DNA of 64,000 nucleotides from NCBI RefSeq assembly GCF_018618415.1, contig NZ_JACSMA010000004.1:62001-126000 (forward strand), in the 5' to 3' direction. Below, piece by piece: positions 3,847 to 35,817 of this stretch. A model generated the notes under the pieces. The model ran no database searches and had not been told where the DNA came from. It was given only the letters and a program-made list of their open reading frames with translations. Each line of letters starts with the position of its first letter. The first letter of the stretch is position 1. The translations under genes were made by a program, and so were the position numbers. Source of the stretch: Exiguobacterium sp. s146 (lineage in GTDB: Bacteria; Bacillota; Bacilli; Exiguobacteriales; Exiguobacteriaceae).

Positions 3847-4482
3847 TCACCCTTTACTGACGATATTATGTTGAAATGCATAGACGACCGCTTGCGTCCG
3901 ATCATAGACGTCGAGCTTCGTCAAAATGTTGGAGACGTGCGTCTTCACCGTCTTCAATGAGATGTATAGTTCGTCGGCGATGACTTGGTTCGACTTTCCT
4001 TCCGCCATCAATTGCAAAATCTCACGTTCCCGGGCCGTCAAACTCTCGTGCAACGTCTTTTCCGGATGACGGAGCCGTTCGAGCATCTTACCCGTCACTT
4101 GGGCGGCCATGACGGGATTGCCCGCTGCCGTTTGACGAATCGCATCGGCGATTTCATTGGCATTTGCCGTTTTCAAGACATAACTCATCGCCCCGGCCTC
4201 GATGACGGGATACACTTTCTCATCATCTAAGAAACTCGTCACGACCAAGATTTTAGCGTCTTTCCAACTCGCCTTGATCCGCTTGGTCGACTCGACCCCA
4301 TCGACAGGTTCCATCACTAAATCCATCAAGACCACATCCGGCTTTTCTTGGATGGCAATCTCGGCCCCAGTCGCGCCATCCGATGCCTCTCCGACGACTT
4401 CGATGTCAGGTTGCGTCGACAAAAACGCCGACACGCCGGCCCGTACCATCTCATGGTCATCAATCAATACGACTCGAATCAT
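3847..4482 (-). CDS. liaR: Envelope-stress response regulator LiaR
   Basis: NarL/FixJ-type response regulator, 211 residues: receiver domain with acidic pocket (DD at 8-9), phospho-acceptor D54 and conserved lysine in VVTSF context, then a LuxR-type helix-turn-helix (about 145-205, with LTAREREILQLMAEG and SLKTVKTHVSNI). In Bacillales LiaR/VraR activates genes answering cell-wall antibiotics. It overlaps liaS by four bases. Its predicted binding site is at 7426-7443 at the head of the operon, so the system should autoactivate. Confidence 0.9.
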   Translation of the reverse strand: MIRVVLIDDHEMVRAGVSAFLSTQPDIEVVGEASDGATGAEIAIQEKPDVVLMDLVMEPVDGVESTKRIKASWKDAKILVVTSFLDDEKVYPVIEAGAMSYVLKTANANEIADAIRQTAAGNPVMAAQVTGKMLERLRHPEKTLHESLTAREREILQLMAEGKSNQVIADELYISLKTVKTHVSNILTKLDVYDRTQAVVYAFQHNIVSKG

Positions 4483-5507
4483 TGTAACCCCTCCACTTGT
4501 TGTTTCACACGAACTTCAATCTGAGTACCGACGCCGGGCACACTGACGAGTCGTAACGTCCCGCCGACCTCAGCCGTCCTCTCTCTTATCGATTGTAAGC
4601 CATATGAGGCGACTTGTGTATCATCGACGTTAAAGCCGATGCCGTCGTCGTTTATTTTTAAGATGACCGTCTGTTGCACGGTCCGCATTTCGATTTCGAG
4701 TCGCTTCGCTTTCGCATGTCGAAGCGTGTTACTGATTGCTTCTTGCACGATACGGAACAGTTCGTTCTCGGTGTGACGCGACAACTCGACTTCTTCGAGC
4801 CGCCAAATGAGTTCGGTCGATTGTTTGCGCGACAGTTCTTCTAACAGTCGCTCGATCCCCGTCTTGAGCGTCATCCCTTCGAGTTCGACCGGGCGGAGTT
4901 GCAACAGTAGTGAGCGCATTTCGGCCTGGGCGGTTTGCGCCATCACTTCGACTTGCTCGATTTGTTTGGCGGCCACGTCCGGTTTCGCCTCGATCGTCTG
5001 CTTGGCGGCCGTCGTCATCATCGAGATGGCGTACAGTTGCTGGCTGACCGAGTCATGCAACTCTCGGGCGACACGTCGCCGTTCCTCAACTACGGCTTCG
5101 CTGCGCGCTTCCTCGACACTGACGGGCCGATCGCCGACCCGCTTTGCCATCTCGACCATTTCCGCGCGCTGTTTCGAGATGCGTGCGATTCGTTCGAGCG
5201 TGTCGCGATACGGCGACAACGGCCGGAACGTGATATCTTTTTGATTCTCGAGCTTCCATAAGGCGATGGCCACTTCACGGAAGTCACGGCGCAAATAAAA
5301 GTATGAGCCGACCCCGAACACGCTGCCGATCAAGACGGCGATGACGAGGATAGACACACCGAAAGGCAACCCTTCTTCACGTGTGAACAAATCTCGGAGT
5401 GAAGTCGAGTCACCTATTAGAAATGCAATCGTGACGAACAGTGCCGTCAACAGACTACTGAACAGCTGATGCCAGACGACGGTCCGTGGATACGAATCTT
5501 TCTTCAT
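4479..5507 (-). CDS. liaS: Envelope-stress sensor kinase LiaS
   Basis: Intramembrane-sensing histidine kinase of 342 residues: two membrane segments (about 15-31 and 50-72) with only a short loop between, a HAMP-like linker, a dimerisation helix with phospho-acceptor H151 in RELHDSVSQQL (HisKA_3 type), and an ATPase domain with NTLRHAKA and DDGIGF. The lack of an extracellular domain is typical of LiaS/VraS, which senses through LiaF. Start and stop overlap liaF and liaR by four bases. Confidence 0.92.
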   Translation of the reverse strand: MKKDSYPRTVVWHQLFSSLLTALFVTIAFLIGDSTSLRDLFTREEGLPFGVSILVIAVLIGSVFGVGSYFYLRRDFREVAIALWKLENQKDITFRPLSPYRDTLERIARISKQRAEMVEMAKRVGDRPVSVEEARSEAVVEERRRVARELHDSVSQQLYAISMMTTAAKQTIEAKPDVAAKQIEQVEVMAQTAQAEMRSLLLQLRPVELEGMTLKTGIERLLEELSRKQSTELIWRLEEVELSRHTENELFRIVQEAISNTLRHAKAKRLEIEMRTVQQTVILKINDDGIGFNVDDTQVASYGLQSIRERTAEVGGTLRLVSVPGVGTQIEVRVKQQVEGLQ

Positions 5508-6196
5508 ACGGTCATCACCTCGACACTTCCGCTCATGAGCACGATATGAATCCGGACTTTTCGTGTCGCCGCTGCATAATCGTCCGATGCCGTATAGAAG
5601 CGGCGATTGAATACGGGCGAGTAATTCGATTCGTCGACTTGAATCTTGCCGAAGCCGATGGAGGCGTCAATCGAATAATCGTAACCGGCCGGAATGAGGA
5701 TTCGGATGTCCCCGGCGAGGCCATTCAGTAGTAAGAACGTCTCTCCTTCCGGGATGATGGCGCGTGACAAGTCGAGTTCAACGTCACGCAACAAGAAGAA
5801 TTCATTCGTGTCTTGGAGCACGTAATGACCACTTTCTTTCGTCCCGAACGTAAACGCCTGTTCTTGCCGAATATGTGACTTGAACCGGCTCGATTCGAGC
5901 GGACGGTTTTTATACAGGCGATAGCCGAACATGAGCAGTAGTCCCGACAGCACAAACCCAAATGCCGCCGACGAAAAGATGAGTCCGACGAGCATGATGC
6001 CGCCAATCCCGTAAAAGATATAGCTGACCGGCTGATTGCCTTTGCGGCTGAAGCGCCGTCCGATATAAAGCAACAATAACGGAACGACCATGCTGAAGAG
6101 GACGCTGTTTCCACCCGTCACGATATCGATAAAGAGTCCAATGGCAAATAAAATAATCATGAATCCGATGATTTGGCGTGTGTTCCAACGTTCCAC
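5504..6196 (-). CDS. liaF: LiaF, membrane inhibitor of LiaS
   Basis: LiaF-family protein, 230 residues from a GTG start with GGGGGAAG just upstream; a longer reading without a ribosome-binding site was rejected. Four hydrophobic segments lie in the first 110 residues and a beta-rich C-terminal domain follows (the LiaF C-terminal region, with GDIRILIPAGYDYSIDAS). LiaF holds LiaS inactive in unstressed B. subtilis cells. The GTG and the hairpin just upstream suggest lower output than the preceding pspA gene. Confidence 0.88.
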   Translation of the reverse strand: MERWNTRQIIGFMIILFAIGLFIDIVTGGNSVLFSMVVPLLLLYIGRRFSRKGNQPVSYIFYGIGGIMLVGLIFSSAAFGFVLSGLLLMFGYRLYKNRPLESSRFKSHIRQEQAFTFGTKESGHYVLQDTNEFFLLRDVELDLSRAIIPEGETFLLLNGLAGDIRILIPAGYDYSIDASIGFGKIQVDESNYSPVFNRRFYTASDDYAAATRKVRIHIVLMSGSVEVMTV

Positions 6197-6238
6197 GTTG
6201 CTTCCCCCTCTCTGACAGTATGTACAATGAAGCAAAGA

Positions 6239-6271
6239 AGCGATGGCCCAACCATTCGTCGGACCATCGCT
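6239..6271 (-). terminator. Internal attenuator between pspA and liaF
   Basis: AGCGATGG and CCATCGCT form an 8-bp stem with a 17-base loop, followed on the minus strand by a weak T-rich stretch. Probably a partial terminator or processing stem giving more pspA than liaFSR mRNA. Confidence 0.5.
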
Positions 6272-6282
6272 GAACCGTTGCG

Positions 6283-6939
6283 TCAGTCTTGTTTGAAGCG
6301 ACGCTCGAGTTCTTTTAGTTTTGCTTCGAAATCATCTTCGTCCGCCGTATCGATTTTCTCTTCAGCGGCCGGTTCTTGTTTCTTCTCTTCTTCCGTGAAC
6401 GGATGCGTCTTCGACGTCTGCGCGCCGAAGATTTGATCGAGCGCACCTTTCAATAAATCCAGGTTTTCTCGCATCGCGAATTCATAACGTTTGTTTTGCA
6501 TCTCATCGAGTTTCAGTCGCATCTCGAGGGCACGGCGCTCGAGGGCATCGAGTTCACGCGCTCCTTCGTCGAGCAACCCTTCGAAATAGCGATACTGCTC
6601 GCCGTAATGTTTTGATTCAAGGGCGGCCCGTTCCGCAAGCTTCTCTTCGCCCGCTTGTTTGGCGAGCTCGGTCTGCTCGTAACGCTTGTCCGCCATCAGT
6701 TTGGCGTCATCACGTTTCGTCGCCAACTCATCGAGGAGCGCCTTTTGACGTTCGACGAGACGTTCGACCGACATCGCTTCTTTCTCAGCACCACGGATGT
6801 GGCGGTTTAACTCGGCTTCTCCGCTCGAACGCGGTGCCGAACGTGGGCCCTCTTTATCTTGGAACTTCTTCATCTCTTTCGATAATTCTTTCGTCAACTC
6901 GTTAGCTAAATCACGAAACTGGTCAAATGGTGTTTTCAT
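6283..6939 (-). CDS. pspA: PspA/IM30-family protein (LiaH-like)
   Basis: Mostly helical, highly charged protein of 218 residues with long coiled coils (about 45-160), an N-terminal amphipathic helix (KTPFDQFRDLANEL) and an acidic tail. This is the shape of PspA/LiaH, which assembles into large rings and supports damaged membranes. The ATG at 6939 has better spacing to AAGGAGG than the adjacent upstream ATG. Position between the liaI-like gene and liaF matches LiaH. The N-terminal part is shorter and more diverged than in B. subtilis LiaH. Confidence 0.82.
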   Translation of the reverse strand: MKTPFDQFRDLANELTKELSKEMKKFQDKEGPRSAPRSSGEAELNRHIRGAEKEAMSVERLVERQKALLDELATKRDDAKLMADKRYEQTELAKQAGEEKLAERAALESKHYGEQYRYFEGLLDEGARELDALERRALEMRLKLDEMQNKRYEFAMRENLDLLKGALDQIFGAQTSKTHPFTEEEKKQEPAAEEKIDTADEDDFEAKLKELERRFKQD

Positions 6940-6961
6940 CATAATATCCTCCTTGTGAAGC

Positions 6962-7345
6962 TTAGCGACGGTTTACAAATTTCTGCCACACTTGATCAAA
7001 CGATTGAAAGCTGCTCCGGTTCGCACGCGAGCCGTCCGCATTCAAAATCTCGACGTCTTGTTTTTGGTTGGCATACATCATATACCCTTTAAACAATACC
7101 CATGCCACCACAATCCCGAGTAACGCCCAAATGTTCGATAAAATTGTGATGATCCCGATCACGGCAAGCGCACCGTAACCGATTTTAGCGCCGACATGTG
7201 TCACGGCCATGAATCTGACTCCAGCCCACAGTGCTAAGAGCGCCCCCAAACCGAACATGATCATATTCGGTAAAAAGCCGATTAGAACGAGAACTAAAGA
7301 GATCGCGGCCACGATGAACAACACTTGTTTCACCTGGCGATTCAT
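6962..7345 (-). CDS. LiaI-like membrane protein
   Basis: 127 residues with about four hydrophobic segments in the first 90, then a soluble tail ending SFDQVWQKFVNRR. It is first in the lia operon, where B. subtilis has LiaI, the membrane anchor for LiaH. The N-terminal layout also resembles the LiaI/LiaF transmembrane region. GAGGAGGG precedes the ATG. Predicted role: anchoring the PspA protein at the membrane. Name by position and topology, not by a motif. Confidence 0.7.
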   Translation of the reverse strand: MNRQVKQVLFIVAAISLVLVLIGFLPNMIMFGLGALLALWAGVRFMAVTHVGAKIGYGALAVIGIITILSNIWALLGIVVAWVLFKGYMMYANQKQDVEILNADGSRANRSSFQSFDQVWQKFVNRR

Positions 7346-7375: not shown

Positions 7376-7443
7376 ATCATAATACGTTATTTTTTATGGC
7401 GCGACGAGCGCAAGGCCCGTTTTCCCTCAGTCTGTAGACCGAG
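7376..7443 (-). promoter_or_regulatory. lia operon promoter with LiaR/VraR box
   Basis: CTCAGTCTGTAGACCGAG (7426-7443) is an inverted repeat matching the TCAGTCT-N2-AGACYGA boxes of LiaR/VraR. A minus-strand -10 (TATTAT or TATGAT, 7376-7384) lies downstream with no good -35, as expected for an activator-dependent promoter; the box ends about 18 bases above the expected -35. Confidence 0.75.
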
Positions 7444-7468
7444 ATGAGAGCGTTCTCAAATCCTGTGC

Positions 7469-7474
7469 TATACT
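7469..7474 (+). promoter_or_regulatory. Extended -10 promoter for the leader ORF and rsgA
   Basis: TGCTATACT is an extended -10. The -35 is poor. It lies only 26 bases from the LiaR box, so transcription could be affected by the lia system. Confidence 0.5.
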
Positions 7475-7506
7475 TGAGGCATCGAACAATGAAAGGATGA
7501 TGTTTT

Positions 7507-7575
7507 ATGAGCACCTTAGTCAACGCAGTACACATCTTGTCAGCCAATCGGAGGGCGACTGTCCTCCACCACTAA
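7507..7575 (+). CDS. Leader peptide ORF upstream of rsgA (22 codons)
   Basis: ATG at 7507 is preceded by AAAGGA at a good nine-base distance and reads 22 codons (MSTLVNAVHILS then ANRRATVLHH) to a TAA at 7573. The stop directly abuts the ribosome-binding site (GAGGAGG) of rsgA, whose TTG start is at 7590. Two mutually exclusive hairpins lie in its second half. This looks like a regulatory leader peptide, although translation is not proven. Confidence 0.6.
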   Translation: MSTLVNAVHILSANRRATVLHH

Positions 7576-7582
7576 GAGGAGG
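7550..7582 (+). promoter_or_regulatory. Alternative hairpins controlling the rsgA ribosome-binding site
   Basis: GGAGGGC (7550-7556) pairs with GTCCTCC (7561-7567) over a GACT loop. The CCTCC of that stem (7563-7567) can instead pair with GGAGG at 7578-7582, which is the rsgA ribosome-binding site. The two structures cannot coexist. The first hairpin is the stronger and leaves the site open; a ribosome on the leader would melt it. Confidence 0.6.
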
Positions 7583-7589
7583 ATTCTAT

Positions 7590-8564
7590 TTGAATCAAAC
7601 AACAATCACAACGGGACGTGTCACAGCACAGTTCCAACATATGTACACGGTCACGACCGATAATGCAGCCTACACGTGTAGCGTCACTGGGAAATTTCGG
7701 CACGAGGCCGAAAGTGAGCGCGATTATCCGGTCATCGGTGACTTCGTCGAGTTCACCGTTCGTGAACACGGTCAAGGCGTGATTCGACGTCTCCTTGAGC
7801 GGCGCACTGTCCTATCACGGGCAGCGGCCGGCAACGAGACGCGTGAACAGCTGATCTGCGCGAACGTCGACTTCATCTTGATCACGATGGCATGCGGGCA
7901 CGACTTCAATCTGCGCCGGCTCGAGCGCTATTCGCTCGCCGCGTGGGAAACCGGCGCCACGCCGCTCATCGTCTTGACGAAATCGGACCAAGTCGACAAC
8001 GCGGATGCACTCGTCGACGAACTCACGTTGACAGTGCCTGGCGTCGACGTCTTCCCTGTCAGTTCAGTCACTGGGGACGGCGTTGAAGCGTTGCGAGCCG
8101 CACTGTCGAGCGGAAGCACGATCGTCCTCGTCGGATCGTCCGGTGTCGGGAAATCGACGCTGACGAACGCGCTCGCCGGGACGGACGTCGCCGAGACGCA
8201 GGCCGTCCGCGAGAGCGATGAGCGCGGCAAGCACACGACGACCCATCGGGAACTGTTCCAAATCGACGACTTGTTCGTCATCGATACACCCGGAATGCGT
8301 GAATTCGGTCTTTGGGACGGGGCCGATCACCTCGACGAGACGTTTCGGGATATCGAGGCGCTCGCCGAGACGTGTCGGTTCCGGGACTGTTCGCACGGCA
8401 ATGAACCGGGATGCGCCGTCCGAGGCGCCATCACAGTCGGAACGCTCGACGCGAAACGCTATCAAAGCTTCGTCAAACTCGAGCGTGAGCTCCGCTATGC
8501 CGAGAAACGGCAAGCGGAAGCGGCACGTCTCGCCGAGAAGAAGAAACGAAAAACAAAAGCATGA
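7590..8564 (+). CDS. rsgA: Ribosome small-subunit GTPase, RsgA paralogue
   Basis: Circularly permuted GTPase that checks late 30S ribosome maturation. From the TTG at 7590 it is 324 residues: an OB-like N-terminal domain, TKSD (130-133) ahead of the P loop GSSGVGKST (182-190), DTPG (232-235), and a C-terminal zinc knuckle (C262, C267, H269, C275). The TTG is chosen because GAGGAGG lies seven bases upstream and similarity to the family begins there; upstream codons look non-coding. Motif wording (RLERYSLAAWE) resembles the second, longer RsgA paralogue of some Bacillales rather than the one beside prkC. A terminator follows. Confidence 0.9.
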   Translation: MNQTTITTGRVTAQFQHMYTVTTDNAAYTCSVTGKFRHEAESERDYPVIGDFVEFTVREHGQGVIRRLLERRTVLSRAAAGNETREQLICANVDFILITMACGHDFNLRRLERYSLAAWETGATPLIVLTKSDQVDNADALVDELTLTVPGVDVFPVSSVTGDGVEALRAALSSGSTIVLVGSSGVGKSTLTNALAGTDVAETQAVRESDERGKHTTTHRELFQIDDLFVIDTPGMREFGLWDGADHLDETFRDIEALAETCRFRDCSHGNEPGCAVRGAITVGTLDAKRYQSFVKLERELRYAEKRQAEAARLAEKKKRKTKA

Positions 8565-35535: not shown

Positions 35536-35789
35536 AAAAAAGCCCTCCAATCCCATGGACTATGGGACGGAAGGCTTCAAGCTCCGCGGTGCCACCCAAA
35601 TTAGTAGACGAATCTACTCACTTTTTCGAGACGAACATCTCGTAGTTCCGATAACGGGGAACGGTCCGGCTACGTCTACTTGCAAAGCGTTCGGGTAGCG
35701 ACTCCAGGAGGTTCTTCGACAGAGATTTCAGTCCGGGCTCTCACCTTCCCCGGCTCGCTTTGCTTACGTCTTCTGTGTACTCGTCCTTT
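35536..35789 (-). promoter_or_regulatory. T-box riboswitch, asparagine
   Basis: On the minus strand: a stem I with the GGTGAGA-type apical region (around 35740), an AAC triplet (Asn codon) in the specifier-loop position (near 35713), the T-box GGGTGGCACCGCGG (35585-35599 region), then a terminator hairpin (35540-35577) with a T run. Uncharged tRNA-Asn should stabilise the antiterminator and turn on asnA. Confidence 0.92.
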
Positions 35790-35817
35790 CAATGTCGTTC
35801 ACAATTGAATTGACCCA

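Follow-up and report, generated by a model that had tools for sequence, protein, structure and literature searches.

Conserved leader ORF and competing hairpins upstream of an rsgA paralogue: a candidate translational switch of possibly inverted polarity

In the window analysed here, a stretch of 64,000 nucleotides from Exiguobacterium sp. s146, an rsgA paralogue is preceded by a short leader ORF that carries an SD-like segment (arm 1) and an anti-SD segment (arm 2) complementary to the ribosome-binding site (SD) of rsgA. The same order of leader ORF, arm 1, arm 2, stop codon, SD and TTG start is common to all 38 genomes of the family that we compared, 19 from the window's genus and 19 from its sister genus. 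Our preferred reading, to which we give slightly less than even weight, is that the leader switches translation according to where a ribosome stands on its 21-22 codons, with a polarity inverted relative to that of the erm and cat attenuators.

The rsgA paralogue and its leader

The features of the locus that concern the leader are as follows.

7469-7474, plus strand: likely -10 element TATACT with TG in front (by eye, from sequence and alignment)
7492-7497, plus strand: SD-like AAAGGA of the leader ORF, 9 nt 5' of the leader ATG (sequence and alignment)
7507-7575, plus strand: leader ORF of 22 codons, MSTLVNAVHILSANRRATVLHH, with a TAA stop (ORF list and comparison)
7546-7551, plus strand: leader codons 14-15 (Asn-Arg), outside the stem at their changing bases and within or beside the predicted critical ribosome position
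7550-7556, plus strand: arm 1, GGAGGGC, SD-like
7561-7567, plus strand: arm 2, GTCCTCC, anti-SD, with either arm 1 or the rsgA SD as partner
7578-7582, plus strand: SD of the rsgA paralogue, GGAGG
7590-8564, plus strand: rsgA paralogue, 324 aa, TTG start, GTPase domain (NCBIfam, Pfam)

Judged by its profile matches, the product of 7590-8564 is a member of the RsgA GTPase family. It scores 168.5 bits against NCBIfam TIGR00157 (cut-off 100), and 168.6 and 36.6 bits against Pfam RsgA_GTPase (cut-off 30) and RsgA_N (cut-off 27); the narrower models NF008931 (175.5 vs 360) and NF008932 (105.1 vs 483) stay below their cut-offs. A Cys/His segment of the protein, CRFRDCSHGNEPGC, was spotted by eye and resembles the RsgA zinc site. 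The original prediction for this DNA had called the gene an RsgA paralogue, and the label is correct because the same genome encodes a second RsgA that is 33% identical to this one.

That prediction had also placed before the gene a 22-codon ORF with its own ribosome-binding site, ending two bases before that of rsgA, together with a 7-bp hairpin (7550-7567) whose 3' arm could pair instead with GGAGG at 7578-7582. Both descriptions agree with our analysis. The leader stop ends at 7575, leaving 2 nt before the rsgA SD, and arms 1 and 2 form a stem of seven pairs with the loop GACT. With the elements folded in isolation, RNAfold gives -12.5 kcal/mol for the arm 1:arm 2 hairpin of the window and -9.5 kcal/mol for arm 2:SD.

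If TATACT is the -10 element, the transcript likely starts about 26 nt 5' of the leader ATG; TATACT is not in the computed list of promoter-like sites. We also observed that the block 7481-7513 (ATCGAACAAYGAAAGGATGATGTTTTATGAGCA), which begins at the presumed start of transcription, ends with the first base of leader codon 3 and encloses the SD-like AAAGGA, is invariant in all 19 genomes of the window's genus save at one site. This invariance goes beyond the needs of an SD and a start codon.

On its own the window says little about whether the element is more than chance. The fold of 7490-7630 is not unusual (z of -0.92; 40 of 200 shuffles do as well). A genome-wide count gives one hit for the pattern GGAGG-N4-14-CCTCC-N8-20-GGAGG, and because its backwards control also occurs once, the single sequence proves little. 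It is conservation, present in 38/38 genomes of the family and in 0/72 stretches outside it among the matches listed, that lifts the element above chance.

Conservation within and outside the family

The rsgA paralogue is present in 19/19 genomes of the window's genus. In every one of them the leader is exactly 22 codons long and ends in TAA, with 2-3 nt from stop to SD and 14-15 nt from stop to TTG. All 19 genomes of the sister genus have a leader of 21-22 codons together with the hairpin, 5-7 nt from stop to SD and 17-19 nt from stop to TTG. In that genus the leader varies in length by a whole codon, while the distances 3' of the stop vary by single bases. The start codon of rsgA is TTG in 38/38.

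For a view beyond the family we used 398 Bacilli genomes drawn evenly from the class, of which 184 carry the rsgA paralogue; 146 of the paralogue-bearing genomes lie outside the family. The scan that recovers the leader in 38/38 genomes within the family was applied to 72 stretches from 71 of these 146, taken among the matches listed (two of the 72 had no start codon for the scan). Of these 72 stretches, 4 have an ORF that is preceded by some SD and ends close to the SD of rsgA, 4 have an anti-SD within 40 nt, and none has both. By this sample, then, the leader element looks family-specific.

A comparison of upstream regions for conservation and covariation had been proposed as a check, with orthologues lacking the ORF and stems named as the contrary case. 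The check came out in favour of the element, as the ORF and both alternative stems are kept in 38/38 with paired changes between the genera. The contrary case does not occur in the family and does describe the sample outside it, where 0/72 stretches among the matches listed have leader plus anti-SD.

Selection on the RNA and on the peptide

In the alignment of the 38 leaders the seven stem pairs occupy the same columns, and 99.5% of 210 cells are paired (30 distinct rows). Between the genera three stem pairs have changed on both sides and one has gone from G-U to G-C, and the CCTCC core is complementary to the SD in 38/38 although the helix has changed. The reading frame through the stem also differs, being CGG AGG GC. 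in one genus and CAG GGA GGG G.. in the other, so coding for the peptide does not account for the stem. With paired changes preserving the stem, and a different frame read through it, selection appears to act on the RNA. All of this covariation sits on the branch that separates the two genera, and slippage of the helix by one base about an unchanged GGAGG/CCTCC core could account for it; it may represent a single event. Two of five covariation measures are not above shuffles, 122/500 and 500/500 of which score at least as high.

We counted codon changes by parsimony on the rsgA tree for the 19 genomes of the window's genus. Leader codons 2-11 show 19 silent and 50 replacement changes, codons 12-17 (SANRRA) show 10 silent and 0 replacement changes, and codons 19-20, which lie in arm 2, show no change at all. 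For comparison, 315 rsgA codons show 1077 silent and 362 replacement changes. Fisher tests against codons 2-11 give 3e-4 for codons 12-15 and 1.4e-5 for codons 12-17, these codon ranges having been picked after seeing the data. The TCAGC of codons 12-13 does not vary at the DNA level and has a possible GCTG partner in some genomes, and the conservation of S12-A13 may reflect RNA pairing instead of the peptide. Codons 16-17 overlap arm 1. Because of these two circumstances, only codons 14-15 (AAT/AAC, CGG/AGG; 5 silent and 0 replacement changes) speak for a peptide constraint free of the RNA. The leader peptide is not conserved in the sister genus, where the leaders end in GG(V/I)xLP. Taken at the level of sequence, constraint acts on both the RNA and the peptide, at different places.

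Sensing of Arg codons was considered as the signal and not adopted. Across 46 long ORFs of the window, AGG is used least of all Arg codons (18 of 923), but at codon 16 the AGG is part of the stem, and the sister genus lacks Arg at this position.

Predicted folds and the position of the ribosome

Mutually exclusive stems that overlap the leader ORF, one of them with the downstream SD, are present in 38/38 genomes. When the elements are folded in isolation the arm 1:arm 2 hairpin is the stronger in 38/38, and when the whole leader is folded this upstream hairpin is predicted to be favoured in 32/38, the window included. Its predicted probability is at least 0.82 in 18/19 genomes of the sister genus. 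Arm 2:SD is favoured in the naked full-length leader of the remaining 6/38, five of the 19 in the window's genus (L013, L015, L016, L017, L020) and one of the 19 in the sister genus (L032). An SD that is open by default is thus a majority prediction and no rule. A conserved upstream segment pairing with arm 1 was also tried as a further element and rejected, as the core pairs upstream at a probability >0.25 in only 2/38 (L013, L032).

We calculated the opening energy of the SD on the naked leader and with a ribosome placed at each codon in turn, folding only the RNA beyond the ribosome. In the window's genus the mean is 4.2 kcal/mol with no ribosome, meaning that the SD is not free there even when the upstream hairpin wins. 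With the P-site at codons 5-10 it falls from 3.8 to 2.9 kcal/mol, rises to 6.6, 6.6, 6.5 and 8.3 kcal/mol at codons 11-14, returns to 4.2 at codon 15 and is 2.8-2.9 kcal/mol at codons 16-19. With no ribosome, opening of the sister-genus SD is predicted to cost 1.1-1.3 kcal/mol. The peak in that genus is 8.2-8.9 kcal/mol at codons 12-14 in leaders of 21 codons (n=10) and 8.0-9.3 kcal/mol at codons 13-15 in leaders of 22 codons (n=9), with shoulders of 3.6-6.1 at adjoining codons and 0.2-3.2 elsewhere.

If the first free base is placed anywhere from 13 to 18 nt beyond the P-site, the peak in the window's genus does not leave codons 10-15. At its peak the predicted SD opening energy rises above the ribosome-free value in 38/38 genomes. 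Shuffled leaders, run for three genomes of the 38, match the rise in 2/300 cases for L001, 2/300 for L016 and 0/300 for L033. In the window's genus the predicted critical range of ribosome positions overlaps codons 12-15 of the conserved peptide segment.

A candidate switch and alternative readings

For the switch that we prefer, we infer both the signal and the sign. With arms 1 and 2 paired, arm 2 could not hide the rsgA SD. A ribosome pausing with its P-site at about codons 11-14 (to codon 15 with a shorter footprint) would cover arm 1 and not arm 2; the uncovered arm 2 would then pair with the SD, and rsgA would be off. On advancing, the ribosome would cover arm 2 and free the SD, and it would terminate 14-19 nt short of the rsgA start, a position from which it may reinitiate. 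Because the conserved codons 12-17 lie at the predicted critical ribosome position, the data suggest a programmed or conditional pause there in the window's genus. Slow Arg decoding, a nascent-chain effect, and a drug or another ribosome state are candidate signals. Our confidence in the sign of the switch is moderate because the default state varies, with 6/38 leaders predicted to prefer arm 2:SD and a mean SD opening energy of 4.2 kcal/mol in the window's genus. Autoregulation by RsgA itself, which the original prediction had found attractive, is conjecture.

Simple translational coupling would account for the locus in another way, and we regard it as fairly unlikely. The leader would be translated constitutively, the terminating ribosome would unfold the region and reinitiate at the TTG, and the hairpin would only pace the ribosome or keep the SD untrapped. 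The close spacing from stop to SD (2-3 and 5-7 nt) and from stop to start (14-15 and 17-19 nt) in 19/19 genomes of each genus is what coupling would call for, as is the TTG in 38/38, and the predicted opening energy of the SD in the window's genus goes down from 4.2 to about 2.8 kcal/mol once a ribosome is at codons 16-19. However, coupling leaves unexplained why arm 1 is an SD copy and arm 2 an anti-SD in both genera and why codons 12-17 change only silently, and the sister-genus SD is predicted to be easy to open with no ribosome at all.

In erm and cat leaders a stalled ribosome exposes an SD that is otherwise masked. An attenuator of this same polarity is a doubtful reading here, less probable again than coupling. 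In it a leader segment further upstream, CAGC, would pair across arm 1 in unstressed cells and arm 2 would hide the SD, until a ribosome pausing at about codons 7-10 took CAGC away, freed arm 1 for arm 2 and turned rsgA on. Against the 6/38 naked leaders that prefer arm 2:SD stand the 32/38 that prefer the upstream hairpin, and the probability of that hairpin is at least 0.82 in 18/19 sister-genus leaders. The required CAGC-GCTG stem is present in the predicted arm 2:SD folds of L016 and L020, but it is short (4 pairs) and, inspected by eye, is altered or weakened in places across the genus. With a ribosome at codons 8-10 the mean SD opening energy of the window's genus drops from 4.2 to about 3 kcal/mol, in the direction that this polarity predicts. 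For genomes like L016 and L020 a four-element, erm-like reading would survive.

It is very improbable that the 22-codon stretch instead extends RsgA at its N-terminus or is an ORF by chance: in the window the rsgA frame continues without a stop back to an ATG at 7497, but this ATG shares bases with the SD-like AAAGGA, an open leader frame of unvarying length is present in 19/19 genomes of the window's genus, and the extension was rejected on finding the rsgA frame closed a few codons before the start in 6/19 of them (open frame 326-328 aa).

The neighbouring lia-type operon

Two further features lie upstream of the leader.

3847-7345, minus strand: divergent lia-type operon encoding a LuxR-family response regulator, a HisKA_3 kinase, LiaF, a PspA/IM30-like protein and a small protein (Pfam)
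7427-7442, no strand assigned: palindrome TCAGTCTGTAGACCGA, LiaR/CesR-like, between the rsgA paralogue and the divergent lia-type genes (pattern search)

The response regulator, the HisKA_3 kinase and LiaF score above their Pfam cut-offs, the PspA/IM30 match is sub-threshold (21.9 vs 33.9 bits) and the small protein has no Pfam match. The first two divergent genes adjoin the rsgA paralogue in 30/30 loci with enough DNA, in both genera, and this adjacency would link the second RsgA to cell-envelope stress.

The pattern TCRGTCTNNAGACYGA, which was drawn from the sites themselves, has exactly one site per genome in 19/19 genomes of the window's genus, always beside the rsgA paralogue and with no control match; in the sister genus it is found in 0/19. 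Compared with the lactococcal CesR motif as given in the available passages of its report (PMC4447274), the sites of the window's genus fit at 15/16 positions in 16/19 genomes, the palindrome of the window among them, and at 14/16 in 3/19. The best upstream segment of each sister-genus genome fits that motif at 12-14 of 16 positions, a range that carries no chance control. The same passages state that in S. mutans the inverted repeat alone is insufficient for LiaR binding (PMC4447274). The rsgA paralogue is perhaps in, or beside, the LiaR regulon, and the candidate site could serve either promoter.

Joining these parts gives a family-wide hypothesis that is speculative and, as a whole, unlikely: a pause on the leader, at SAN-R in one genus and at another peptide in the sister genus, would close the SD of a stress-linked second RsgA, such that this 30S assembly factor would be made only with free elongation on the leader, under transcription controlled by LiaR. 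The sensor would have been kept as RNA and its peptide trigger exchanged.

Comparison with known leader-controlled genes

The original prediction had likened the layout to that of erm and cat leaders and also to stop-coupled reinitiation, which the spacing would allow. The likeness to erm and cat stands in kind, as leader peptide, competing hairpins and SD sequestration are shared and the leader ORF and mutually exclusive hairpins are conserved; at the sequence level a short ORF with its own SD lies just upstream in 38/38. It probably does not stand in sign. The downstream SD of erm and cat is hidden by default, whereas it is predicted not to be hidden in the default fold of 32/38 leaders here, where the upstream hairpin is favoured, the polarity is predicted to be the reverse, and the SD is predicted to become hidden when a ribosome is at about codons 11-14.

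Among the mechanisms compared, the nearest described one is, from the passages available, the mgtQ leader of mgtB in Salmonella (PMC8092293). There too a short ORF overlaps alternative stem-loops that mask or free a downstream ribosome-binding site at the translational level (PMC8092293). The mgtQ leader has four elements (1:2 and 3:4 versus 2:3), and slowed leader translation is expected, in the parts of that report on which we draw, to raise mgtB (PMC8092293). Our leader has three elements, and its peptide and gene are unrelated; with three elements, slowing of leader translation should therefore turn rsgA off, the reverse of mgtQ.

Other systems share single aspects, as far as the relevant passages of their reports describe them. 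In the toiL leader of topAI in E. coli, stall positions on the leader ORF alter structure at the downstream ribosome-binding site, but the gene is unrelated, is repressed by default and relieved by stalling, and has a link to Rho termination (PMC12121999). The orf34 leader of speF in Salmonella has two consecutive Arg codons in its conserved part, and ribosome progress sets alternative folds of the mRNA; it differs in acting also via Rho and RNase G (PMC6386406). The sister genus here lacks the Arg pair. The WblC-activated RsgA/EngC paralogue of Streptomyces coelicolor is likewise a second RsgA under a stress regulon (PMC7157823). Its activation runs through a promoter-binding regulator, the uORF in that case belongs to wblC, and the passages at hand describe no rsgA leader (PMC7157823).

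The original prediction knew of no described leader peptide for RsgA, and our literature search, whose coverage of subscription journals is thin, likewise found none. The conserved leader-peptide element with competing hairpins is of a known kind. If the preferred reading is true, a leader peptide controls a ribosome-assembly GTPase, and slowed leader translation shuts the gene rather than opening it. The element would be a small and direct system for asking whether cells tune 30S assembly factors to elongation status, and if sister genera have exchanged the peptide on a retained RNA switch, the case would illustrate how sensors of this type acquire a new trigger.

Other upstream elements

Some stretches outside the family carry elements of their own before the rsgA paralogue. 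In L096, from an unrelated family, GGAGGA, TCCTCC and AGGAGGA follow one another in this order, with no matching leader ORF. Five genomes of family f3 (L055, L059, L062, L070, L103) share by eye a recurring terminator-like hairpin, CCATG...CC(A/G)TGGT plus a stretch of T, in which the loop is similar; this hairpin may mark where the upstream gene ends, or it may be an attenuator. In six Bacilli of other families (L058, L060, L065, L085, L088, L094) a recurring motif of the type GAGG(GG)ATTTCTCCGTGATC was noticed by eye tens of bases 5' of the SD of the paralogue. An Rfam search of the whole window at gathering scores gave three matches, none near 7400-7600, and identified a T-box leader at 35560-35801 on the minus strand (105.3 bits).
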